This document shows positions 7,403-35,123 of a stretch of 64,000 nucleotides of DNA, one piece after another. The notes beneath the pieces were generated by a model. It saw only the letters and a program-made list of their open reading frames with translations, ran no database searches and was not told the origin of the DNA. Position numbers and translations under genes: made by a program. This DNA comes from Thermoplasmata archaeon (GTDB lineage Archaea > Thermoplasmatota > Thermoplasmata > Lutacidiplasmatales > UBA184). The stretch is taken from contig JAKAVQ010000004.1 of NCBI GenBank assembly GCA_021817245.1, positions 1 to 64,000 on the forward strand, read 5' to 3'. Each line of letters opens with the position of its first letter. The stretch's first letter is position 1.

Positions 7403-8167
7403 ATGACGACGGAGAAGCAGCGGACCTGGCAAGAAGGTCTCGAGAACCTTGGGGAGAACCTCGTCCGGTTGGGCTCGGCGCTCCGGGCGATTCAGCAGAG
7501 TCAAGGCACCCTCGATGAGGAGGCTCCAAGCTCGGTCGCCGTTGCTCAGCTTTCCGCGACGTTCGGCCTTGCACTGCGGCAGGCTCGCGCCGTTCTGATC
7601 TCCAACGAGGCATCCTTCCTTGCTCTGATGCGGCCGAGCACTCCCACTATGGTAAGCGGAGCGCTCCAAGCGGGGGAGCTCGAGCTCGCGCGGAGCCTGG
7701 TCCGAGAAGGGATCCACGGCGCGCAGCAGCTCGTGACCTTGCTGGAGCGGATTGGCAACGCGGCTCCAACTGACTCCGCGCTGGTCAGTTCGATCCTGAC
7801 GAGCTCCCTTGAGCATCTCGGCGACACCGTGGGCGCGGCGGGCTGGCAGCTTGTTGGAGTCTGCCATGAGTTCCAGGCCGAACTCAGCCTACTTGCTTCG
7901 CCCCCCGCAAGCGTGGGCGACCTTGGGCCCGGAGGCGGAGCCCTCCTCAACGACATGACCAGCGCGGTGAGGGAACTCCGCGCGTCGCGGCGGTTCTGGT
8001 TCCGGGTCGATCATCAGATCGCGTCCGCGACGGGCGTAGTCGTCAATTCGCCAGCGAGACAGTCCATCACCCGGACCTCAGCCTCCGGGCCCGCGGCCAG
8101 CGCCCTACCGTCTGAGCGAGCGGGGCGTCGGTCGGTCTTCGCGAACGGTTCCTCGGATCCGGCCTGA
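7403..8167 (+). CDS. Hypothetical helical protein
   Basis: 254 aa, ATG start. Composition and pattern are those of a soluble mostly alpha-helical protein: long stretches rich in Ala, Leu, Glu and Gln, no signal peptide, no TM segment, no cysteine clusters except one in the middle. The last 50 residues are Ser/Ala-rich and probably disordered. No family was recognised. It lies alone between the zinc-ribbon group and the flippase. Codon use looks like that of its neighbours, so it is probably a real gene. Confidence 0.55.
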   Translation: MTTEKQRTWQEGLENLGENLVRLGSALRAIQQSQGTLDEEAPSSVAVAQLSATFGLALRQARAVLISNEASFLALMRPSTPTMVSGALQAGELELARSLVREGIHGAQQLVTLLERIGNAAPTDSALVSSILTSSLEHLGDTVGAAGWQLVGVCHEFQAELSLLASPPASVGDLGPGGGALLNDMTSAVRELRASRRFWFRVDHQIASATGVVVNSPARQSITRTSASGPAASALPSERAGRRSVFANGSSDPA

Positions 8168-8217
8168 GGGAAGGGGCCTCAGTCTTGGCGGTAGGACCCA
8201 TCTCCCTGAGCGGTGAC

Positions 8218-8234
8218 TGTACGGTGTCCGTACA
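8218..8234 (+). promoter_or_regulatory. Palindromic operator-like site
   Basis: TGTACGGTGTCCGTACA is a perfect inverted repeat with 7-bp arms and a 3-bp centre. It ends only a few bases before a TATA-like stretch (8237-8245). In archaea this is where a repressor would mask the BRE/TATA, or an activator would assist TBP/TFB. The likely target is the flippase gene. Confidence 0.5.
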
Positions 8235-8236
8235 AA

Positions 8237-8245
8237 GATAAATAG
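8237..8245 (+). promoter_or_regulatory. TATA box for the flippase gene
   Basis: GATAAATAG directly follows the palindrome. Transcription would start around 8268, which is downstream of the GTG at 8252 and argues for a later start codon in the flippase gene. Confidence 0.5.
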
Positions 8246-8311
8246 CCCCCGGTGTGCCGTCGGGGGACGGGGCTCGCCCGTCCTACTGGAACCGGGTACA
8301 GGTCGACGAGG

Positions 8312-9919
8312 TTGGCGCTACAGTCCACCGAGGCCGCAGAGCCGACCAGCATCAGCGTGCCGTGGGTCTATCTGAGCAGCCTGGTCTTCCTGCTCTCCGG
8401 GGCTATCTTCTACCTGTACCTGGCCCGGGTTCTCCCACCGAATGACCTCGGCGCGGTGGTGATTCTCTCCGCTATCGCAGCCGTCATGGCGGTCGCCTTT
8501 TCCCTAGGGATCGGCCCGGGCTTCCAGCACTTCCTCTCCTATCACCTCGGACGATCGGAGACGGCGATCGTCCAGTCGCTGGTCCGGAGCGCGTTCTTCT
8601 ATGCCCTGGCGCTCTCGGTCGCCTCCGCGGTCACCACGCTCGCGCTCTCGACCGCTTTCAGCGACCTCTTCTTCCATACCCGCGCGTATGCGACCGCGAT
8701 CACGATCCTCGCGGTCTTCGCGGGGGTGCAGACCGCAAACTCCGCGCTTCAGTCCGTTCTCCTTGGCCTCCAGAGGTTCGTCTCCTACTCGCTGGTGTTC
8801 ATTTCGAGCTCGATCGCCATCTATGGTTTCGCGGTGGGCTTTCTCGTGATTTGGCCTGGTGTAGATTCGATCGTCACCGGGTGGGCTTCGGGAGCTTCCC
8901 TGGGTTGCGCCTTGGCGGTTCTGGCGATCGTGCGAGTGCGGGGGAGGCGGAACTCCGACTCTGGAATGGATTCGCGCACCGCCGGAGCGAGCCTCCACCG
9001 CAGCCTGGTGGCGTACTCCCTTCCCCTCTTCGTGTGGTCAGTCCTTGCCACGGGGGCGACCTACGTCGATCGATTGGTTCTTGCCTCCGTGGCGGACCTC
9101 GCGAGCGTTGGAGTCTATAACTACGCGCTCCTCATCGCTTCGGGGAGCCTCGTGATCGTCGGTCCCTTCGCGACCATCCTTGTGTCGAAGGCGTCGAGCT
9201 CGTTTGGGCAAGGAGACCGGCAGGAGCTGCGAACCTTGACTCGCGGCGCGATCACCATGATCGCCCTGGTCTACGTCCCCATCAGCCTTGGGATTGCCGC
9301 TCTCGGCCCCTTCCTCCTCCGGGTCCTTGTAGGTCCGGGCTTTGTCACCGGAAGCCTCGCCATGGCCCTTCTCCTGGTCGCTTCGGCGGTCGTCGTCCCT
9401 TATTCGATCCTGAGCAGCGTCGCCGCGGGAACTCGGAGGACGATGGCGTTCGCGAAAGCGGCGGGGCTGGCGCTCTGCGCAAACATCGTCCTCTCGGTTG
9501 TCCTCGTTCCCCGCGTTGGGATGGTGGGTGCTGCAATCGGGAATTCCTCGATGGTTTGGGTCCCGTTCGCCGTGTTCTACCTCGAGCTACGGAACACCGG
9601 TCTTGTCGCATTCGACCTGCGCTCGCTCTCGCGTATCTGGCTGGCGAGCTTGGCAATGGCGGCCGTGGTGGGGGTTCCGCTCGCGTTGTTGGGGTACGAC
9701 CTCTCATCGGTCGCGATATTCGTAGTCGCGGGGATCCTGGTCCTCGCCGTCCTACTCCGGCTACTCGGGGCGATCTCGGTTGGGACCGCTGCCTCGCTTC
9801 TCGGACTGTTGCCTCGCCGGCTTGGGGCCCTACGCCATGTGATCTACTGGCTCGCTCCGACGTGTCAGACCCCCACGGTGCCGGCATCGAGCGGCGTGGG
9901 TCTCTCTCTCCAACGGTGA
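8312..9919 (+). CDS. Wzx-like polysaccharide/lipid-linked glycan flippase
   Basis: Multi-pass membrane protein of the MOP (polysaccharide transport) superfamily, expected to flip lipid-linked oligosaccharides across the cytoplasmic membrane. About 12-14 hydrophobic segments are seen, starting with VPWVYLSSLVFLLSGAIFYL and including the typical first-loop pattern LARVLPPNDLGAVVIL. The frame is open from GTG 8252, but the TATA box at 8237-8245 places the transcript start after that codon. TTG 8312, just before the first TM helix, is the better candidate; it gives about 535 aa, normal for the family. The window contains a second flippase at 47561-49198. Confidence 0.85.
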   Translation: MALQSTEAAEPTSISVPWVYLSSLVFLLSGAIFYLYLARVLPPNDLGAVVILSAIAAVMAVAFSLGIGPGFQHFLSYHLGRSETAIVQSLVRSAFFYALALSVASAVTTLALSTAFSDLFFHTRAYATAITILAVFAGVQTANSALQSVLLGLQRFVSYSLVFISSSIAIYGFAVGFLVIWPGVDSIVTGWASGASLGCALAVLAIVRVRGRRNSDSGMDSRTAGASLHRSLVAYSLPLFVWSVLATGATYVDRLVLASVADLASVGVYNYALLIASGSLVIVGPFATILVSKASSSFGQGDRQELRTLTRGAITMIALVYVPISLGIAALGPFLLRVLVGPGFVTGSLAMALLLVASAVVVPYSILSSVAAGTRRTMAFAKAAGLALCANIVLSVVLVPRVGMVGAAIGNSSMVWVPFAVFYLELRNTGLVAFDLRSLSRIWLASLAMAAVVGVPLALLGYDLSSVAIFVVAGILVLAVLLRLLGAISVGTAASLLGLLPRRLGALRHVIYWLAPTCQTPTVPASSGVGLSLQR

Positions 9920-25875: not shown

Positions 25876-26643
25876 TCACTCGTACGAGAGGTCGGAGCGC
25901 ATGTACGCACGGACCGCGAGGAGCAGCACGACCGTCGTCTCGGCGAGGAGGACGAGCAGCTGGTACCCGTCGGTGGCCGTCAGCGAGCCCGTGTAGCCGC
26001 CCCGGACGGCGTCGGAGACGTAGGTGAGAGGGTTGACCCGGAACAGCGCCTGGAGGACCACCGGAAGGCCGTTCGTGAGCGGATAGAAGACCGTGCTCGC
26101 GAAGTTGATCACGAAGATCAGCAGGATCTGGATGCTGTTGTACGCCGTGTTCGACTTCACGAGCGCCGCGAGCAGCAGCATGAGGGCGCCAAAGAAGATC
26201 GATCCGAGCACGATCGTCCCGAAGATCGTCGCGAGGGCGGCGAGGCCGGTCGGGATCGATCCCAGGAGGACCCACGCGACCGCGAGCATCACCGCGGCGC
26301 CGCCGAGGCCGAACAGCATCGACGTCAGCATGATGCCGAGCAGGTACTGGAGACGCGTGAAGGGCCCCGAGAGCAGCTGGGCCAGCATCCCCCATCGCCG
26401 GTCGGCCCAGAGAACGCTCCCTCCGACCGTCCCGGCCATGACGGCCTGGAACGCCATGATCCCGGGCGTGAGGAAGGCGAGGTAGCTCGTACCGGAACCG
26501 CCGCCCGAAGCGAGCGACTGGAACCCGAACCCGAAGAAGACGAGGTAGAGTCCCGGAAGGCCGAGCAGGATGATGAGGCTCCCCGGGTCGGTGTTGACGA
26601 CGATGTTCCGGTAGATCAGCCGCACGAGGTTAGGCAGCGCCAT
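25876..26643 (-). CDS. ABC-2 type transporter permease
   Basis: 255 aa with six hydrophobic helices, typical of drug/polysaccharide ABC-2 exporters (RLIYRNIVVNTDPGSLIILLG at the start; GGYTGSLTATDGYQLLVLLAE near the end). Its ATG overlaps the 3' end of the ATPase gene by 14 bp, so the two are translationally coupled subunits of one exporter. Confidence 0.85.
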   Translation of the reverse strand: MALPNLVRLIYRNIVVNTDPGSLIILLGLPGLYLVFFGFGFQSLASGGGSGTSYLAFLTPGIMAFQAVMAGTVGGSVLWADRRWGMLAQLLSGPFTRLQYLLGIMLTSMLFGLGGAAVMLAVAWVLLGSIPTGLAALATIFGTIVLGSIFFGALMLLLAALVKSNTAYNSIQILLIFVINFASTVFYPLTNGLPVVLQALFRVNPLTYVSDAVRGGYTGSLTATDGYQLLVLLAETTVVLLLAVRAYMRSDLSYE

Positions 26644-27604
26644 TCTTCTCGCCCTCCCCGTGGCGCACCGACTTCAGGAAGACGTCCTCGAGGGTGTTCG
26701 TGCGCACGTTCAGCCACTCGATCTGCACACCGAGGGTCCGGGAAAGTTCGACGATCACCGCCAGCGTCTGTTTCGGGTCGTCCGTCAGGATCACCGCGGA
26801 TCCCGAGTTGGTCCGCACCGACCCGATGGTCGCGAGGGACTCCGCGAGGCGGGCGAAGTACTGCGCCACGTCGCCCCCGCCGACGGTGAGGTCGATCGTC
26901 TTCTTGCCGCCGTAGAGGCGCTTCAGGTTCTCGACCTCGTCGAGCATGAGGATGCGGCCCTCGTCGATCACCGCGACCCGGTCGCAGAGGTAGTCCGCCT
27001 CCTCGAGATTGTGCGTCGTGAAGACGACGGTGAGCCCCTTACGGACCTCGGCCCGGATCGAATCGAGCAGCGTCCGACGCATGATCACGTCGAGGCCGAC
27101 CGTCGGTTCGTCCAGGAACAGGATCTCCATGTCGTGCATGAACTCCCGGGCGACCTGCACGCGGCGCTTCTGCCCTCCCGAGATGTCGAAGGCGCGCCGC
27201 CGTCGAATGTCCGTGAGACCGAAACGCTCGATGAGCTGCTCCCCGCGGCGGATCCGCTCCGCCTTAGGGATCCCCCACAGGATCCCGTACACGTTGAGAT
27301 TGCCTTCGACGGTGGTGAAGTCGAACGACTCCGCCTGCTGCACGACGCCGATCTTCCGGCGGATCTTCTGCCCGTCCCGCACCGGGTCCATGCCGAGGAC
27401 GCGGAGCCGCCCCGACGTCGGTTGGATGAGCGTGGTCATCGCCTTGATCAGGGTGGACTTTCCGGCGCCGTTCCGGCCGAGAAGTCCGAAGACCTCCCCC
27501 TTGCGGACCTGGAAGCCGACCCCGTCGAGCGCGAAGTGTCGGTGGTCGTACGTGTGGCGAACGTCCTCCGCCGACACCGCGAACTCCGCCGAGCTGAGCG
27601 TCAC
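26630..27604 (-). CDS. ABC transporter ATPase, DrrA type
   Basis: Walker A GRNGAGKST, signature ISGGQKRRV, Walker B ILFLDEPTVGLD and H-loop TTHNLEEAD are all intact. The C-terminal extension of about 90 aa after residue 230 (VGGGDVAQYFARLAES...) is the DrrA-type regulatory domain. The frame is open to 27829, but a palindromic TATA-like CCTTAAGG (27628-27635) is centred 27-28 bp before GTG 27604, indicating a leaderless start there (324 aa). GTG 27613 is an alternative. Pairs with the permease at 25876-26643. Confidence 0.85.
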   Translation of the reverse strand: MTLSSAEFAVSAEDVRHTYDHRHFALDGVGFQVRKGEVFGLLGRNGAGKSTLIKAMTTLIQPTSGRLRVLGMDPVRDGQKIRRKIGVVQQAESFDFTTVEGNLNVYGILWGIPKAERIRRGEQLIERFGLTDIRRRRAFDISGGQKRRVQVAREFMHDMEILFLDEPTVGLDVIMRRTLLDSIRAEVRKGLTVVFTTHNLEEADYLCDRVAVIDEGRILMLDEVENLKRLYGGKKTIDLTVGGGDVAQYFARLAESLATIGSVRTNSGSAVILTDDPKQTLAVIVELSRTLGVQIEWLNVRTNTLEDVFLKSVRHGEGEKNGAA

Positions 27605-27627
27605 GAGCGCCACGACGGGTGGGGTGG

Positions 27628-27883: not shown

Positions 27884-28459
27884 CTAGCACGCCCACTCTG
27901 GACTCGGGTGGTCGACGCCGAGATCGACCTCCGGGGACACCTGACAGCTCGAGCTCGGGCTCCCCGTGATTTCTACGAGGAAGACGGCGCCCGCTCCTTC
28001 ACAGGCGTTCGTCGCATCGGTGGAGAGCGAGAACCGGCCCTGATAGCTGAAGGTGTGCAAGGGACGGAGCTCGAGATACGGCGAACTAGGAAGGTTGTCG
28101 CTGTAGGCGAAGAGCGAGCAGGCTTTCGGCTCGATGAGCGTAACCGTCTCGGTGATGCTCAAGGTCTTCTCGCCGAGACTGAGCAGCGCGGCCGAGACCC
28201 CGCAAGAATCCCCCGGGGCCAAGTTCTCCGCCGAGACCCGGAGGAACAACGGCGAGAGATCGACATCACATCCGACCCAGGACGCGCTCGGCGAACTGCT
28301 GACGGGACCGGTCCAGACGAGGTCGACCTGGGCACAGAGGTTGCCGTACCCGGCCGACGCGGAAGAACACTCCGATAAGCTGCCGGCGCTCGCGGCATAG
28401 CCCACGGCACCGGTCGCGCTCAGCGCGACGACCAACAGCACCGCACCGAGCGCCTTCAC
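27884..28459 (-). CDS. Small exported protein, third member of the TasA-like group
   Basis: 191 aa from GTG 28459 (the frame runs to 28609 without support). An export signal covers about residues 4-24 (LGAVLLVVALSATGAVGYAA). The mature part is beta-rich and Cys-rich. It shares with the next two genes the phrase 'LAPGDxCGxSA' plus a late CxGAGAVFLVEITGSP strand comparable to CTFSVTVTG. The camelysin-like F-x-x-x-x-x-x-x-G junction motif is not conserved, so it may be an anchor, cap or minor subunit. Distal gene of the six-gene block. Confidence 0.6.
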   Translation of the reverse strand: MKALGAVLLVVALSATGAVGYAASAGSLSECSSASAGYGNLCAQVDLVWTGPVSSSPSASWVGCDVDLSPLFLRVSAENLAPGDSCGVSAALLSLGEKTLSITETVTLIEPKACSLFAYSDNLPSSPYLELRPLHTFSYQGRFSLSTDATNACEGAGAVFLVEITGSPSSSCQVSPEVDLGVDHPSPEWAC

Positions 28460-28639
28460 GGCCGCCCGTCCGGTGAGGCCCGGCTCGACTCCTGTCGGCG
28501 GGCGACCGCACGATACTTTGGATCCGACCCTCTGCTCACTGCGTGCCTCCGCCGATCGACGGACTCTGAGTCTCCCCTCGCCGGTCGACCGCGGCCCCGG
28601 GTCCGGCACCGCGTATCGGGACTACCACCAGGATCCGCC

Positions 28640-29197
28640 TTACGTCCCGGCGACCCCTGTCACGGTCACGCTGAACGTGCACGTGCCCCCTTCCCCCGCG
28701 TTACCGGCGCCGGAGGGAAGCAGCAGCGTTCCGCCCCAGGAGATCGTTCCCTCCCCCGGGATCGGATAGGACGTCGCACCGGTCTCCCCGCCGGAGCCGA
28801 TCGTGACTCCCGGCGTGAACCCGTTGTCGCTATAGATGAGCTCGCCGCACAGCCCTCCACCCGAAGCGGAGAGGGACTCGGAGATCGTTCCGGGCAGGGA
28901 TCCGGCGTTCGACAGGTCGGCCGAGTATCCACAGAAATCCCCCGGCGCGAGGTTCGAAGCAGTGAGCTCGATCGTGTCGGCGGGAGCGTTCGTCTCGGTG
29001 ATCGAGACGCCACAGTGGTCGTACGTTCCGTATCCGTGGGAGGAAGCGAGGCTCCAGCTGAAAGGGCCGAAGGTCCCGGCGGTGGCCGTCCCGTTGACGT
29101 AGGCGTTCGCGCTGAACGCCGCGAATCCGACTCCGGCCACGGCAAGGCCGGCGACGATCACGGCGAGGAGCGCGGTCGGGGTTCGGAGTGCCGCCAC
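28640..29197 (-). CDS. TasA/camelysin-like exported fibre protein 2
   Basis: 185 aa from GTG 29197. The signal is LLAVIVAGLAVAGVGFAAFSANAYVNGTATAG, split here only by reading: a hydrophobic core followed by the FAAF...NGTATAG junction typical of SipW-processed TasA/camelysin leaders. The mature part is a beta-sandwich-like sequence with a SNLAPGDFCGYSAD turn and a CTFSVTVTG final strand. Four or so cysteines could form disulfides. Predicted to be cleaved by the signal peptidase encoded upstream and to assemble outside the cell. Subunit role is inferred from leader and context. Confidence 0.65.
   Translation of the reverse strand: MAALRTPTALLAVIVAGLAVAGVGFAAFSANAYVNGTATAGTFGPFSWSLASSHGYGTYDHCGVSITETNAPADTIELTASNLAPGDFCGYSADLSNAGSLPGTISESLSASGGGLCGELIYSDNGFTPGVTIGSGGETGATSYPIPGEGTISWGGTLLLPSGAGNAGEGGTCTFSVTVTGVAGT
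29080..29130 (-). repeat. 51-bp perfect repeat, copy in fibre gene 2
   Basis: Identical base for base to 29683-29733. It encodes the leader-junction segment FAAFSANAYVNGTAT in both genes, including all synonymous positions, whereas the mature regions of the two genes are strongly diverged. Confidence 0.9.
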
Positions 29198-29260
29198 GGG
29201 ACCCTCGGCGAGGGGGTTGTTTGTGCTGCGCGCGAGTCTACGCGATCCGTTCGTGCGCCT

Positions 29261-29794
29261 CTACGCGTAGCTCACGCCGGTCAGCGTGTCGCTGAACGAC
29301 GCGGTCGCTCCCTGGCACTCGTTGCCGGCGCCGGAGTTGAGCTGGATCGTCACCGTCACCGGGAAGGTCGCGCCGGGCGCCTGGTTGCCGAATGCCGGAC
29401 CGCTGTCGGAGATGGTCCACTCGTTGGCTCCGCATCCGCTTCCACCAGAGATCCCCGTGATGGCGCCCCCGTTCGAGGTGACCGTCAGACCGACCGATCC
29501 TCCGTTCACCGCGGTTTCGGTGACTTGACAGTAGTCCCCGGGCGCGAATGCCCCGGCAGTGATGGTCATGACGTTGGGGTCGCTCAGGACGTCCTGGTAC
29601 GACCCGAACCCTACGGAGCACGAGGTATATCCGATATTTGTCACGGTGGGCGCTCCGGAAAAGTGCACTTCGGCGATACCGCCGGTGGCCGTCCCGTTGA
29701 CGTAGGCGTTCGCGCTGAACGCCGCGAATCCGATCCCCGCCACTCCGATCACGGCCACGAGCGCCACCAGTCCCATCATCACTTTCTTTCCCAT
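29261..29794 (-). CDS. TasA/camelysin-like exported fibre protein 1
   Basis: 177 aa from ATG 29794, which has AGGAGAG 6 bp upstream (the frame extends to 29827). The leader MGKKVMMGLVALVAVIG...GIGFAAFSANAYVNG continues into TATGGI, the pattern F-x7-G-x4-G seen at the cleavage junction of SipW-dependent TasA/camelysin proteins. The mature part shares AFAPGDYCQVTET and GNECQGATASFSDTLTG with the neighbouring paralogue. A TATA-like CTTAAG lies about 55 bp upstream. Probably the major subunit because it has the best SD and promoter and comes first. Confidence 0.65.
   Translation of the reverse strand: MGKKVMMGLVALVAVIGVAGIGFAAFSANAYVNGTATGGIAEVHFSGAPTVTNIGYTSCSVGFGSYQDVLSDPNVMTITAGAFAPGDYCQVTETAVNGGSVGLTVTSNGGAITGISGGSGCGANEWTISDSGPAFGNQAPGATFPVTVTIQLNSGAGNECQGATASFSDTLTGVSYA
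29683..29733 (-). repeat. 51-bp perfect repeat, copy in fibre gene 1
   Basis: Second copy of the identical 51-bp segment (see 29080-29130), 603 bp away in the same orientation. Identity stops abruptly on both sides. Confidence 0.9.
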
Positions 29795-29991
29795 CTGCTC
29801 TCCTGCGAAGGTCGGTGGACCTTGCATCCGACGAACCGGGTCGAGCGGCTTAAGGCGTGAAGACAGACCTCCTCGGTTGGTCCGTACGGGGCGGCAGACT
29901 TCGTCGCTATCAACCCGTGGAATCGTCCGGCGACGAGGCGCGGTGCCGCGTGCGCTCGACCGACCGTCGCCGGACGGAAAAGGGTTCTAGT

Positions 29992-31368
29992 TCAGCGCGG
30001 CTCCGCCGCGCGAAGGAGGTCTTCGAGGCGTCGGTGGAATCGGTCGAGGATCGTCGGGATCTCTGCCGGTCGGGCGCTCCGGACCGCCCGGGCGGTCGTC
30101 CGGACAAGATCCAGAGCACGGTCCCGATCCGGGGGGCTCAGAGGCGCGGCGTGGATGCGGCCGATGTCCGCCCGGAGCTGTTCGCTCGCCCAAGCCATCC
30201 ACTCCACGCCCTCGGGGACGGGATTGCCCGGTCCGGGGTCGGTCACGGATCTCGGGGTGCCGCTGGGAGTAGGAACGTCGGACACCCCTTCGGGGGAGTC
30301 ACGGCCGTCGAGGTCTCCCGCAGAGGGATCCTCCTCCGGCTCGGCGCTCGGGGGGCCCGAGCGGCCGTGGCAGTACTCGTAGGCGACCGTGCCGTCCACC
30401 ACGTAGAACACGACGCCCGGTTCCCGCGCTCGGCCGACGGCGGGCCGGAGGATCGGTCGACCGAGGGTGTCCGCCACCTTCACGAGATCCTCCCAGGACC
30501 GGACGGCCATCGTGGTCGGGACCTCGGGGGGGCTTTCGACCTCGGCGATGATCTCCTCGAACGGCTCGATCAAGGGGCCGAGATCACGGGCCGAGCTTGG
30601 CCCAGGTCGGCGTCGGACGCGGTTCCAGTAGAGGACCGACACCACGAGCGCGGCGACGGCCGCCAGGAGGTAGGCCACCGCGTCGATGAGTCCGGCCGAT
30701 GGACCGGGGTCCGCGGACCCCGCATTCGGTCGGAGGGTTCCCCCGCTCGAGGCGGACTCCCCGCTCGGCACGATGTACGACGAGGAGAAGGTGAGGTTCA
30801 GGAAGGGATGGAGATCGACGGGAGCGCTTTCGTTGGCGGCGGAGACCGAGCCGGTCAGGTTCGCCGCGACCGTCACGGTAAACTGGGCCGGGGAATAGCC
30901 GAGCTGTCGGTCGATCGATTGCGTGAGGTTCTCGACCCAGGAGACGTTGAGGTCGTATCGGTCGACCTGGACGACCTGGGTCGTGCCCAGGGTCCGGTTC
31001 TGCTGCACCTGTTGCGCGAGGGGCTTTGACCAGAGGGCGGTCGACAGCGTGGTCGTGCATCGGTCGGTGAGATCGACCGAGGCCGGGGCCGTCATTGACA
31101 GGCTGTCGATCAGCGAGATGTTGACCCATCGGGTGATGGAGGGGAACAGGGTGGAGTTCGGCCCCGCCACAACGGTCGAATTCGTGAGGTTGTTGGGGGT
31201 CAGCGTCGCGACGTAATCGTAACTCCCGAGGCCGTCGTAGGCCAGGACCGGAGCCGGCGGCGGGGGCGAGGACGCGGCGCTGGCCTGATGGGCGAGGTTG
31301 TAGCCGGCCCATGCGGTCGCGAGGACGAGCGCGATGACCAGGAGCGGCAGGAGCTGGATTGGTTTCAC
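29992..31368 (-). CDS. DUF5305-family membrane protein
   Basis: 458 aa from GTG 31368, which overlaps the TGA of the signal peptidase gene (GTGA) and has GGAGG about 8 bp upstream. Topology: TM helix about residues 7-27, an ectodomain of about 230 aa rich in Asn sequons, a second TM near 265-290, then a cytoplasmic region. That region contains the DUF5305 hallmark SWEDLVKVADTLGRPILR...GVVFYVVDGTVAYEY, followed by a Glu/Ser/Pro-rich part and a terminal helix pair. Genes of this family are known beside signal peptidases in haloarchaea. A role as pilus assembly or anchoring factor is inference. The frame is open far upstream (to 32517), but that is a shadow of the peptidase gene. Confidence 0.75.
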   Translation of the reverse strand: MKPIQLLPLLVIALVLATAWAGYNLAHQASAASSPPPPAPVLAYDGLGSYDYVATLTPNNLTNSTVVAGPNSTLFPSITRWVNISLIDSLSMTAPASVDLTDRCTTTLSTALWSKPLAQQVQQNRTLGTTQVVQVDRYDLNVSWVENLTQSIDRQLGYSPAQFTVTVAANLTGSVSAANESAPVDLHPFLNLTFSSSYIVPSGESASSGGTLRPNAGSADPGPSAGLIDAVAYLLAAVAALVVSVLYWNRVRRRPGPSSARDLGPLIEPFEEIIAEVESPPEVPTTMAVRSWEDLVKVADTLGRPILRPAVGRAREPGVVFYVVDGTVAYEYCHGRSGPPSAEPEEDPSAGDLDGRDSPEGVSDVPTPSGTPRSVTDPGPGNPVPEGVEWMAWASEQLRADIGRIHAAPLSPPDRDRALDLVRTTARAVRSARPAEIPTILDRFHRRLEDLLRAAEPR

Positions 31369-32735
31369 GTTGGACGCCTCCCCGGTCGCCTCGGAACGAG
31401 AAGCATGATCAACACCACGAGGACCAGAACGCCCGCGGTCAGCAGCGGGTCGAGGACGAAGAATCCGAGGTACGGCAGGACCGCCACTTCGACCCCGACG
31501 ACATCGTGGAACGGGACCGAGCACGGATCCGGTGCGAGGTTCGCATCCCCCTTCGTTTGGTACACCGGGGCGCTTCCGTTGACCAGGATCCGGTAGACTC
31601 GGTGGACCGTCGGCGCGGGGAGGCATCCCACGCGGAACGCGATGATCGTCCCCACCGTGATGGCCGAAACGCGAGCGTGTTCCAGCACCACGAGGTCCCC
31701 CCGATGGAACGTCGGAACCATGCTCCCCGTGGCGATCGCCAAGAGCGGCGGGCTCGTCCCCGTTACGACGGGCGCGATCTGGGTCGTCGCGGCTCCCGCG
31801 AGCGCGACCACCGCGACGGCCAGCACGGTCTCGCGGACCTGTCGTCGCGCCTCCGCTCGATGGCGGAACCGATGCCGACGCGGTCCGATCGGCTCTCCCA
31901 GGTACTGACGGGCCTGCAGTCGGGGCTCTCGCAGCCCCACCGCGACCAGGACCATCAGGGCGCCATACGCGAGCAGGAGCGCGGCGAATCCGGTCTCCCA
32001 GTTGGTGAAGCGCGCTCCGATGGGGAGCAGCGTGGACGCCCAAAGGAGGCCGGTGCGTGTCGCGACCGGTCCGAGCAGACTCCATCGCTCTTTGTAGAAG
32101 TATAGGGCGAGCAACAGGCCAAGCACGAAGTTCGCGACCGGGACCTCGAAGAGGTACTGGGCTCCGGAGACCGCGCTGAGGGAAGGGAGGAGTCGAAAAT
32201 CGGTGGATTCGAGGGAGAAGGCGACCGCGGAGAGGGCGAGGGCCGCGGTCAGCGGGAGCGCTCGCGACAGGCGGCGGAACACGTAGCCACGGAAGACCGT
32301 CTCTTGGGCGAGCGCTGTGACGGGTGCGCCCAGCAGAAGGAGGCCGAAGCTCGTCACGCCGGGAGATGGTACCCGGCCGAATCCGAGGAGAAAGCCCGGA
32401 TACGTCTCCGCCAGTAGGTAGACGAAGACGAGCAGCGAGGCGAACAGAAGCGTCGGGCCGACGGGTCCCCGGAGGATCAAGCCGCACTCCCGAAGGGATC
32501 GTCCTTCGAGCCGGCAAACGAGGACCACGACTCCGAGCGTCGCGGCCTCGGCCGCGACGGAGACGAGGAGCGCGAGGTCGAGGGGCAGATCGCCGGCAGC
32601 GTAGAGTCCTGCTTGGACCAAGCTGATCGCAGCGAGGACGACGACCACGATCGGCACGAGGCCGGCCCGGGGGCTCCCCGCATCAACGTTCGCGCCGGCC
32701 ACCACCGGTCGTAGGGCCCCGTGGCGACCTTTCAT
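31365..32735 (-). CDS. CPBP-like membrane domain fused to signal peptidase I (SipW/archaeal type)
   Basis: 456 aa from ATG 32735, which overlaps the preceding stop (ATGA). The N-terminal part, about residues 20-250, has about eight helices and resembles CPBP (CAAX/Abi) intramembrane proteases around AQETVFRGYVFRRL. The usual EExxxR is QETxxR, and no FxxxH or third-motif His is obvious. About residues 300-440 are a signal peptidase I domain of ER/archaeal/SipW type: catalytic Ser in TGSMVPTFHRGDLVVL, His in PTVHRVYRI in place of the bacterial Lys, and Asp in TKGDANLAPD. A final TM helix follows. It probably cleaves the leaders of the three exported proteins downstream. Confidence 0.8.
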   Translation of the reverse strand: MKGRHGALRPVVAGANVDAGSPRAGLVPIVVVVLAAISLVQAGLYAAGDLPLDLALLVSVAAEAATLGVVVLVCRLEGRSLRECGLILRGPVGPTLLFASLLVFVYLLAETYPGFLLGFGRVPSPGVTSFGLLLLGAPVTALAQETVFRGYVFRRLSRALPLTAALALSAVAFSLESTDFRLLPSLSAVSGAQYLFEVPVANFVLGLLLALYFYKERWSLLGPVATRTGLLWASTLLPIGARFTNWETGFAALLLAYGALMVLVAVGLREPRLQARQYLGEPIGPRRHRFRHRAEARRQVRETVLAVAVVALAGAATTQIAPVVTGTSPPLLAIATGSMVPTFHRGDLVVLEHARVSAITVGTIIAFRVGCLPAPTVHRVYRILVNGSAPVYQTKGDANLAPDPCSVPFHDVVGVEVAVLPYLGFFVLDPLLTAGVLVLVVLIMLLVPRRPGRRPT

Positions 32736-33322
32736 CGGGAAGAGGACCCCCGGCGGGCGGGTCCGCGCCTGCGACGGACCGTGACGGTGGCGAACACCGA
32801 GGGAGCGGCGGGCCCACCGCCCCCTCGGAACGGCGGACCGGACGGTCCCAGCGAAGCGCCCCAGATCCCGCGTGGCGGCGATGCGCCGGGCCCGAGATCC
32901 GAGGGCTCGGTGCGGGGCTCGACGGGCCGGCTCAGCACCGCCGTCCCTCCGGTCCCCAGCGCCCCGTCGTTCCACATCCACCGTGAGAGTTGGCGCAATG
33001 CCGCCGCCTGGACGGCGGGCACGGGAACGAAGCCGTAGATGCTCCGGTGGAAGTGCTGGACCGCGGTCTCCAGCTCGACGGTCCTTGCGAGGATGACCTC
33101 GATCGCGGTGAGGACGCCCTTCCCTCGAAGCGTGGAGACGTAACCGGCTTCCGTGAGGCCGAGCAGCCCGTGGTCGGTGCAGAACTGCGCGTACTCACGG
33201 AACGATCGCGGGTTGAGGTTGGCGATGCCGATAATCCGCGTCTTGGGGGTGGGAGAGTCCGCCGCCCGGAGAATGTCGCGCAGCACTTCAATGCTGGTGC
33301 GATATCCCCGCGGCGCGGTCAC
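32732..33322 (-). CDS. Winged-helix transcriptional regulator (HTH_45-like)
   Basis: 196 aa from GTG 33322. About the first 85 residues form a small archaeal winged helix: YRTSIEVLRDILRAAD, KTRIIGIANLNPRSFREYAQ, HGLLGLTEAGYVSTLRGKGVLTAIE. Proteins of this type (PadR/HTH_45 style) usually act as dimeric regulators of adjacent operons. The C-terminal half is low-complexity, Pro/Gly/Arg-rich. Its stop overlaps the next start by 4 nt, so it heads the signal peptidase-DUF5305 operon. An A/T-rich stretch at 33376-33393 is a plausible promoter. Confidence 0.7.
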   Translation of the reverse strand: MTAPRGYRTSIEVLRDILRAADSPTPKTRIIGIANLNPRSFREYAQFCTDHGLLGLTEAGYVSTLRGKGVLTAIEVILARTVELETAVQHFHRSIYGFVPVPAVQAAALRQLSRWMWNDGALGTGGTAVLSRPVEPRTEPSDLGPGASPPRGIWGASLGPSGPPFRGGGGPAAPSVFATVTVRRRRGPARRGSSSR

Positions 33323-33973: not shown

Positions 33974-34891
33974 CTAGACCGGGCGATCGACCGGCCCGGG
34001 ACGGAAACGCGGCGCCGAAAACAGCGGGGCCCCGGCGACCGGCTCCCGCACGAATGGGAGGGGGTGGCCGCGCGCCTTTGGGCTCGTCGCGGCCTCGGTC
34101 CAGAGCGCCTCGAACCGGGCGACCTGCATGCGGACCCGGGTGGGGTCGTCGGTCACGACCGCGGTCTCGGAGGGTCCGGCCCGCTCCGAGAGCGCAGGGA
34201 GCCGCAGCAGAAGCCTTCCATCGACGACATAGAAGTGGGCCCCGGCCGGAGTGTAGTGGTGCACCTCGAGCGGTCCACCGAACGAGCCCACCTCGGCGAC
34301 CAGCGCACGCTCGAACCGGAGCCCCGCGATCGAGGCGTCGATCAGGAGCCGGGTGTGCACTCCCGAACGCACGAGCCGGGCGAGAGCGGATCGGAGCCGG
34401 GTTCGGTACGTGAGCCCCGAGGTCGACGGACGGAACATCAGTTCCAGCGAGTGGCGGCCTCGCGCCAGAAGCTCCAGCACCGACGGCTCGGGGAACCGCT
34501 CACCGACCGATCCCATGGTGGGAACCAGCCAGCTCCGGGGGCCGCTCGCCGCCGGGAGGAGCCCACTCGCCCACTTCGCGTAGATCTCCGCGATCGCGAG
34601 CACGACCTCTTCCTCCTCGTGGAGGAAGCTGCTCACGCGGCGGAGGACGGCCTCGGGGGGCAGCGCCACGTAGCGCCGGGGCCGGACGCTCTCCGCGAGC
34701 ACCAGTCCCCGTCGGGTCAGTCGCGACAGAAGTCGATAGGTGGTCGCCCGATGGATCCGGGCCTCGCCGCCCACCCGGCGGACCTCGACCGGGCCGTGCC
34801 GACAGAGCGTGAGGTAGAGCGCGGCCTCCCTCGGGGAAAGCTCGAGGAGGCGAAGTCCGCTCAGAAGCTCACCGCCCGCCGCCCGGTGCAT
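33974..34891 (-). CDS. TrmB-family transcriptional regulator
   Basis: 305 aa from ATG 34891. The N-terminal winged helix is of TrmB type: LLELSPREAALYLTLCRHGP, then VGGEARIHRATTYRLLSRLTRRGLVLAE. The C-terminal half (from about residue 125) resembles the TrmB/PLD-like domain with LLARGRHSLELMFRPSTSG and GVHTRLLIDAS, ending with a strand pair containing HFYVVDGRLLLRLP. It may bind a sugar or other ligand. The frame is open to 35110, where two TATA-like stretches lie, so a longer N-terminus (for example GTG 35071) cannot be excluded. Confidence 0.75.
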   Translation of the reverse strand: MHRAAGGELLSGLRLLELSPREAALYLTLCRHGPVEVRRVGGEARIHRATTYRLLSRLTRRGLVLAESVRPRRYVALPPEAVLRRVSSFLHEEEEVVLAIAEIYAKWASGLLPAASGPRSWLVPTMGSVGERFPEPSVLELLARGRHSLELMFRPSTSGLTYRTRLRSALARLVRSGVHTRLLIDASIAGLRFERALVAEVGSFGGPLEVHHYTPAGAHFYVVDGRLLLRLPALSERAGPSETAVVTDDPTRVRMQVARFEALWTEAATSPKARGHPLPFVREPVAGAPLFSAPRFRPGPVDRPV

Positions 34892-35096
34892 CGCTAGGTC
34901 CTCGACTTCCGGCGTAGGAGTGGGATCGTCGAAGCTCCGGTGGGCGGAGCCTCGCCGGTTGCCTATCGCCAACCGGCTTCCCCCCACGACCTCGGGGCCG
35001 GGCCGGCGGAAGCTATCCGGTAGACTCGAACCGGCGCGGAACTTTGTTCGAAATGCGACGGATGGTCGCACCTTTCCTCCAGGGTCGCCACGATGG

Positions 35097-35123
35097 GATA
35101 TAATGCGCATAGTCCTGTATAAA
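35097..35123 (-). promoter_or_regulatory. Tandem TATA-like elements upstream of the TrmB gene
   Basis: On the minus strand TTTATACA (35116-35123) and ATTATATC (35097-35104) lie 20 bp apart. The second is about 27-30 bp before GTG 35071, which is in frame with the TrmB gene and would give a leaderless longer form. They lie between the HAD phosphatase gene's end and the regulator. Confidence 0.45.

Follow-up and report, generated by a model that had tools for sequence, protein, structure and literature searches.

We analysed a six-gene locus on the minus strand of a 64,000-nucleotide stretch of DNA (the window; positions 1 to 64,000 of contig JAKAVQ010000004.1, assembly GCA_021817245.1) from a Thermoplasmata archaeon with a genome of 2.31 Mb. 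A preliminary description had placed six consecutive genes of a TasA-like fibre system at positions 27884-33322, and all six open reading frames (ORFs) were confirmed at these coordinates. They encode a winged-helix regulator (32732-33322), a 456-amino-acid (aa) fusion of a CPBP-like membrane domain to a signal peptidase of the endoplasmic reticulum (ER)/archaeal type (31365-32735), a 458-aa DUF5305 protein (29992-31368), and three small proteins with signal-peptide-like starts: subunit 1 (29261-29794, 177 aa), subunit 2 (28640-29197, 185 aa) and subunit 3 (27884-28459, 191 aa). As had been described, the regulator and fusion genes share the 4 bases ATGA (32732-32735), and the fusion and DUF5305 genes share the 4 bases GTGA (31365-31368). 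The leader junction FAAFSANAYVNGTATxG, claimed for two of the three small proteins, was likewise found in subunits 1 and 2. A fibre locus of the TasA/bundling-pilus type is a well-supported prediction from sequence and gene neighbourhood, on the evidence set out below.

The relationships of the exported proteins were examined by profile comparison. Subunit 1 as query retrieved 15 proteins; a profile built from 14 of these and the three window proteins retrieved 24, the last being P0025. Subunit 2 is 38% identical to subunit 1 (E = 2e-20). Beyond residue 40, the pairwise alignments of the three proteins scored 8.3 (subunits 1 and 2), 6.1 (2 and 3) and 5.0 (1 and 3) standard deviations above 200 shuffles per pair, indicating that all three bodies are homologous. 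A 27-row subunit profile (A3) searched against the PDB gave AbpX as its first two matches (9sj2, E = 2.2e-6; 9rhp, E = 1.3e-5). A second profile (A6), built from 35 hand-picked donor-type subunits of several lineages, including Thermoproteota and bacterial modules, and omitting the terminal class described below, matched AbpX at 4.8e-13, TasA (5of1) at 3.7e-4 and the TasA filament (8aur) at 4.3e-4. The A6-AbpX alignment covers the body as well as the N-terminal segment (profile 26-160 on chain 2-137). Searched singly against the PDB, the window subunits matched neither AbpX nor TasA and gave one chance match each. The NCBIfam scan of ten relatives' subunits returned only names below cut-off, and TIGR04088 matched 3 of the 27 A3 members, subunit 1 not among them, at E values up to 1. 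Two subunits encoded beside the same peptidase-DUF5305 pair elsewhere (loci L170 and L187) matched AbpX, with E values of 6.7e-5 and 2e-4. By sequence, the subunits can thus be assigned to the TasA/archaeal bundling pilus (ABP) group. The kinship with TasA proposed in the preliminary description is supported by sequence; the nearest solved relative in these comparisons is AbpX, with TasA next. The structure of AbpA is 7UEG, according to the accessible part of PMC12954529.

The same family includes proteins named camelysin, a metallo-endopeptidase, and the locus might on that account export an enzyme instead of a fibre. P0025 matches camelysin PF12389 at E = 1.1e-17, and the module subunit of locus L136 passes the cut-off of this family (23.5 vs 22.5), whereas the window subunits gave no Pfam match to it. 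HExxH is the usual zinc motif. It is absent from all three window subunits, subunit 1 having a single His, and a metallo-endopeptidase role was rejected for them. Several donor-type copies with a common N-terminal segment would also suit a polymer better, and TasA, which is of the same kin, is described as a matrix fibre in the available portion of PMC9674648. We therefore consider an exported camelysin-like enzyme highly improbable.

The predicted model of subunit 1 is a beta-sandwich with a predicted local distance difference test (pLDDT) score of 81.5, in which residues 24-26 and 28-33 fall below 50. None of the 687 matches in the fold search with this model reached E <= 0.001; immunoglobulin (Ig)-like and PapD-like domains were listed, and TasA and AbpA were not among the matches listed. 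Instead of a thread, the exported proteins could make up a sheath or a coat resembling an S-layer, or act as a soluble adhesin, their likeness to TasA being limited to the type of signal peptide and an Ig-like body. The many unrelated Ig-like domains among the listed fold matches favour this explanation, as do the extra C-terminal parts on some terminal-class copies. Against it, the AbpX profile match extends over the body and the N-terminal segment together, and conservation in these proteins is highest in the donor segment. We regard a sheath, coat or adhesin as unlikely.

The donor segment of mature subunit 1 reads AFSANAYVNGTATGG. In A3, residues 22-39, which surround the predicted cut, are the best conserved, with a mean of 0.81 against 0.45-0.66 for five later segments (the next two at 0.66 and 0.65). 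Part of this segment is unordered in the monomer model of subunit 1. It aligns to WSETLSLSATISTG of AbpX, a segment found at the N-terminus in 9sj2 and at the chain end (residues 159-174) in 9rhp; the latter appears to be a strand-permuted construct made to satisfy the groove. Counted from the alignments, the residue at P2' of the predicted cut site is Phe in 25 of the 27 A3 members, both exceptions being terminal-class proteins (that of this species and its near copy), and F, W or Y in 35/35 donor-type A6 rows. The regular expression used for scanning loci itself demands an aromatic P2', so its matches are not evidence for this rule. Genes 1 and 2 have 51 identical bases spanning the predicted cleavage site and the donor segment (29683-29733 in subunit 1; 29080-29130 in subunit 2), within an 82-nt repeat. 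This is more than expected by chance; in the bodies of the two proteins, 46 of 129 aligned residues agree (36%). The shared bases would be accounted for by gene conversion or by selection that keeps a single common strand, and both would fit mixed polymerisation.

The third exported protein differs from the other two. Subunit 3 lacks the donor motif, reading GYAASAGSLSECSSASAGYGN, and has 8 Cys. The preliminary description had counted three exported subunits; all three are of exported type with homologous bodies, but the third belongs to a different class, which we term the terminal class and which is probably capping. In its own genome it was matched by A6 at E = 4.6e-18 although that profile excludes it. 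The terminal class was recognised in 11 of 18 genus cassettes and in one other genus (L141); the ten relatives that served as seeds of the terminal-class profile match it by construction. In place of the donor segment these proteins have a start rich in Gly, Ser and Cys. In 8 of 11 listed, though not in the window copy, a Cys immediately follows the predicted cut. Wherever it was recognised together with other subunits, the terminal-class protein was the last subunit of the run (13/13, the lone fragment at L107 being omitted from the count). Since subunit 3 keeps the acceptor body without a donor strand, it could accept a strand and not donate one, and would end the fibre; the class probably caps fibres. 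The Cys of the terminal class could instead be an anchor. One copy carries C-terminal pentapeptide repeats (L088, E = 1e-18), and another (L015, positions 7826-9115, genome G008) extends into a long, unassigned C-terminal part with the motif FSESGLPSG, which we take to be typical of Thermoplasmata surface proteins. At locus L094 (G088:C15), five donor-type genes and one terminal-class gene precede the regulator, the largest array among these loci.

The fusion protein contains a CPBP/Rce1-like stretch at residues 130-225 (32061-32348) and an archaeal-type signal peptidase I domain at residues 304-443 (31407-31826). Both halves of the CPBP-signal peptidase fusion named in the preliminary description passed their profile cut-offs (CPBP/Rce1, Pfam, 31.0 vs 22.4 bits, E = 3.2e-7; TIGR02228, NCBIfam, 79.0 vs 51.85 bits, E = 3.5e-22). 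The protein database holds 97 proteins of 414-476 aa of this kind (P0026-P0122), P0045 being 99% identical to the window fusion. The peptidase domain matched SEC11A at E = 8.4e-14 singly and 3.1e-24 as a profile. Ser338, His378, Asp397 and Asp403 align with the matching SEC11 residues, Ser338 standing opposite an Ala of chain 9rjb. In an alignment of 116 sequences, which includes near-duplicates and three fragments, each of the four is identical in 115/115 sequences having the column. The peptidase had been called SipW-type. An archaeal/ER-type peptidase indeed lies beside TasA/ABP-type subunits, but the protein scored 44.9 bits against the 190 of the SipW equivalog cut-off (NF046067); it may work like SipW without being filed as SipW.

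The catalytic motif of CPBP/Rce1 proteases consists of Glu, Arg and His. In the CPBP half of the fusions, in the same alignment, Glu145 and Arg149 are each present in only 41/115 sequences, no His occurs in any of the three aligned motif regions examined, and residues 95-290 contain no His at all in 50/116 rows, one of them a fragment without the region. An active CPBP protease was rejected because the catalytic Glu, Arg and His are not conserved; this half is therefore best read as a putative pseudo-protease, and this part of the original reading needs that qualification. The idea that the N-terminal membrane domains all derive from a single ancestor was also rejected, only the comparison of Thermoproteota with bacteria being clear (96.3%, E = 1.8e-9). 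The membrane domain of the window family gave 15.4% with copies that we labelled Thermoplasmataceae-like, 5.3% with Thermoproteota and 0.2% with bacteria.

TIGR02228 was above cut-off in 17 of the 78 genus genomes, in all 17 at the cassette locus. The role of general signal peptidase of the genus was rejected for the cassette peptidase, 60 of the 78 assemblies, many of them incomplete, giving no match. In the own genome of the locus, no general signal peptidase was found with TIGR02228 or PF10502. The only other S26-type protein found there (L234, G000:C12:85500-89500) is encoded beside the nickel superoxide dismutase gene sodN (TIGR02753, E = 7e-46). It scored 52.2 bits against a maturation-protease cut-off of 63.25, and we read it from its KR motif as a probable Ser-Lys protease.

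We then compared gene content across the genus. Among the 78 genomes, subunits were found in 20, the fusion in 18 and DUF5305 in 23, one of the last (G055) being a weak match not upheld on closer check. All 18 genomes with the fusion also have subunits and DUF5305. Fisher tests of co-occurrence gave 8.9e-16, 2.5e-13 and 1.6e-13, values to be read with the caution that genomes of one genus are not independent. The order fusion, DUF5305, subunits holds in 14/18 cassettes; the subunits precede the fusion in G078, G088 and G089, and DUF5305 is inverted in G053.

Across the class, A6 matched in 83 of 400 genomes. Peptidase and DUF5305 genes lie in the subunit locus in 40 of the 42 class genomes with an A6 match at E <= 1e-10, a count that includes G072 (locus split over two contigs), G128 (a subunit fragment at a contig end) and G268 (DUF5305 in two pieces). 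The two exceptions are G080, a fragmented genome in which DUF5305 is present, and G219. Eleven of the 40 (G035, G111, G119, G128, G149, G250, G268, G296, G310, G333 and G385) were recognised only with a local DUF5305 profile and lie outside the 36 genomes matched by the Pfam DUF5305 model, indicating that this model undercounts. In genomes with a module, further subunit genes also occur at other sites that lack one. DUF5305 was matched in 20 class genomes outside the genus, of which 13 were fetched; the other seven (G103, G104, G125, G131, G141, G156 and G351) were below the family cut-off, and G103 was reached later. For a lone DUF5305 gene on a long contig (L103, G048:C11), neither peptidase nor subunit was recognised within the 14 kb fetched, and a further copy lies at a contig end (L102, G046). 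The copy of G268 is split into two ORFs about 1.6 kb apart (L265, G268:C1:729000-748000); in the module of G385 (L276) it is in a single piece.

Beyond the class, we examined 79 peptidase loci taken from the best 80 of 371 confirmed stretches. DUF5305 was present in 23 of 27 loci with a peptidase of 370-530 aa, in 0/50 with a shorter and in 0/2 with a longer one, the length limits having been chosen after the lengths were seen. With the 15 nearest loci set aside, the counts were 8/12 (370-530 aa) and 0/50 (shorter; P = 1.5e-7). These eight distant loci belong to archaea (Desulfurococcales L170 and L204; Thermoproteota L187 and, as a single chain, L174) and to bacteria (Saccharibacteria L188 and L208; metagenome-assembled genomes of Firmicutes, L189, and Bacilli, L199). 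Pfam DUF5305 was above cut-off in the six scanned (L170, L174, L187, L188, L189 and L199), and a subunit match was found in all eight except L174 and L208. Conserved co-location, on which the preliminary description had staked its reading, is thus upheld within the genus, the class and beyond, and it supports DUF5305 as a partner in the set, outside archaea too. The set is not peculiar to this genome, the same module being present in other archaea and in bacteria.

The DUF5305 protein passed the cut-off of PF17231 (60.1 vs 29 bits, E = 2.8e-16). Its model (pLDDT 80.8) has a helix at residues 3-31, strands at 42-212 and a second helix at 225-252, a predicted layout of helix, beta-sandwich ectodomain, helix and cytosolic domain. 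The fold search gave three matches at E <= 0.001, the best being 3but, an Archaeoglobus protein. No paper on DUF5305 was found in the open-licence literature searched. Peptidase and DUF5305 occur as one chain in P0123, P0124 and L174, which is strong evidence for joint action of the two. Such single-chain proteins would also suit a DUF5305 that serves long archaeal-type signal peptidases as an accessory subunit without catalytic function, comparable to the extra subunits of the eukaryotic complex, with no chaperone role and with spontaneous assembly of the fibre; L174 and L208, where the pair occurs and no subunit was detected, point the same way. However, subunits are present in 21 of the 23 DUF5305-bearing loci, and DUF5305 is missing from all 50 loci whose peptidase is shorter, indicating that the pair is tied to these substrates. 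We hold a purely accessory role to be a serious alternative, and a somewhat doubtful one.

Our preferred reading, to which we give a probability of roughly 70%, is that the locus builds a donor-strand surface fibre of the TasA/ABP class, likely of the biofilm type, and that peptidase and DUF5305 probably form the membrane platform for releasing and assembling the subunits. The subunits would be exported through Sec and remain tethered by their signal peptides until the fused peptidase cuts before xF, leaving the aromatic residue at P2'. Within the membrane, the dead CPBP half would serve for docking or for lateral entry. The freed N-terminal strand would then insert into the groove of the next subunit, so that cleavage by the peptidase would be the assembly switch. 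DUF5305 would be anchored next to the peptidase, grip the newly cut subunit with its ectodomain and pass it on, as TapA does for TasA. The strand common to subunits 1 and 2 would allow both to be built into a single fibre, and subunit 3, an acceptor body without a donor strand, would end it. More tentatively, and at less than even odds, the long signal peptidase and DUF5305 may represent an unnamed donor-strand fibre assembly machine common to archaea and bacteria. In such a machine, strand exchange would be coupled to cleavage and take place at the cytoplasmic membrane. A dead intramembrane-protease domain would hold the signal peptide, and DUF5305 would be the resident chaperone; the donor subunits would be interchangeable and have a single strand in common, and the fibre would be ended by a Cys-rich subunit that lacks it.

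We think that the locus may work like tapA-sipW-tasA and the archaeal bundling pili. AbpX of the PDB (9sj2, 9rhp) is probably the ABPx of Pyrodictium abyssi, an ABP-like, donor-strand-exchanged fibre according to the available part of PMC11952670. The subunits are related by profile to those of bundling pili over the body and the N-terminal strand segment; unlike the pili, the window combines two donor subunits sharing one strand with a terminal subunit rich in Cys, a winged-helix gene and a peptidase fused to a CPBP-like domain. The Bacillus tapA-sipW-tasA and sipW-calY loci likewise encode an ER-type Ser-His peptidase with TasA-type substrates and an aromatic P2' (accessible portions of PMC9674648, PMC10269814 and PMC4292775), and TasA, whose P2' residue is Phe, is a substrate of ER-type SipW that Escherichia coli LepB cuts poorly, as given in the part of PMC10269814 available. 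In contrast to these loci, the window has DUF5305, and no TapA-like gene was recognised among its six; its peptidase also differs from SipW, having 456 aa with a membrane domain and falling far below the SipW cut-off. The Sulfolobus acidocaldarius thread (Saci_0406/0405) resembles the proposed fibre in being a donor-strand archaeal fibre with a predicted signal peptidase I cut and a putative cap (available sections of PMC9715654). This likeness is one of description, and in those sections the authors were unable to assign a chaperone in the cluster, a difference from the window. The CPBP/Rce1 intramembrane proteases share a profile match above cut-off with the fusion and differ in their catalytic residues. 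Among the matches listed in open-licence literature, beyond whose coverage the main ABP and cannulae papers lie, there was no account of the peptidase-DUF5305 pair or the terminal-class subunit.

The first gene of the locus encodes a regulator that passes the HTH_45 cut-off (Pfam, 35.8 vs 25.5 bits, E = 8.1e-9). It is Sso10a-like and remains below the cut-off of that family (NCBIfam, 40.8 vs 60 bits) despite an E value of 1.7e-10. A winged-helix switch had been proposed to head the locus. This fits the window, where the HTH_45 gene comes first; the regulator was found in 12 of 16 genus cassettes, the window counted. It was sought in the genus cassettes; G021 and G071 were excluded since the fusion gene stands at the start of their contigs, and it was not found in the cassettes of G068, G078, G089 and G092. 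In G053 it adjoins DUF5305. The promoter and terminator scan of the locus gave no excess over shuffles. Upstream on the same strand lies a gene for a TrmB-like regulator (33974-35110; TrmB, E = 6.7e-13), and directly downstream, also on the same strand, are genes for an ABC transporter ATPase and an ABC-2 permease (25876-27616). Of the 24 genus loci scanned, 4 contained a relative of this ATPase, in no case next to the module.

To our knowledge, the usher-less assembly of TasA-type and bundling-pilus fibres has not been explained so far. Our results indicate that the subunits are accompanied by a specific membrane pair in various archaea and also in bacteria, which makes the assembly question testable by deleting or rebuilding two genes. 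If the proposed reading is true, DUF5305 would gain a function, the keeping of a signal peptidase for one substrate class would be explained, and an archaeal fibre would have a defined end, provided by the terminal subunit that lacks the strand.

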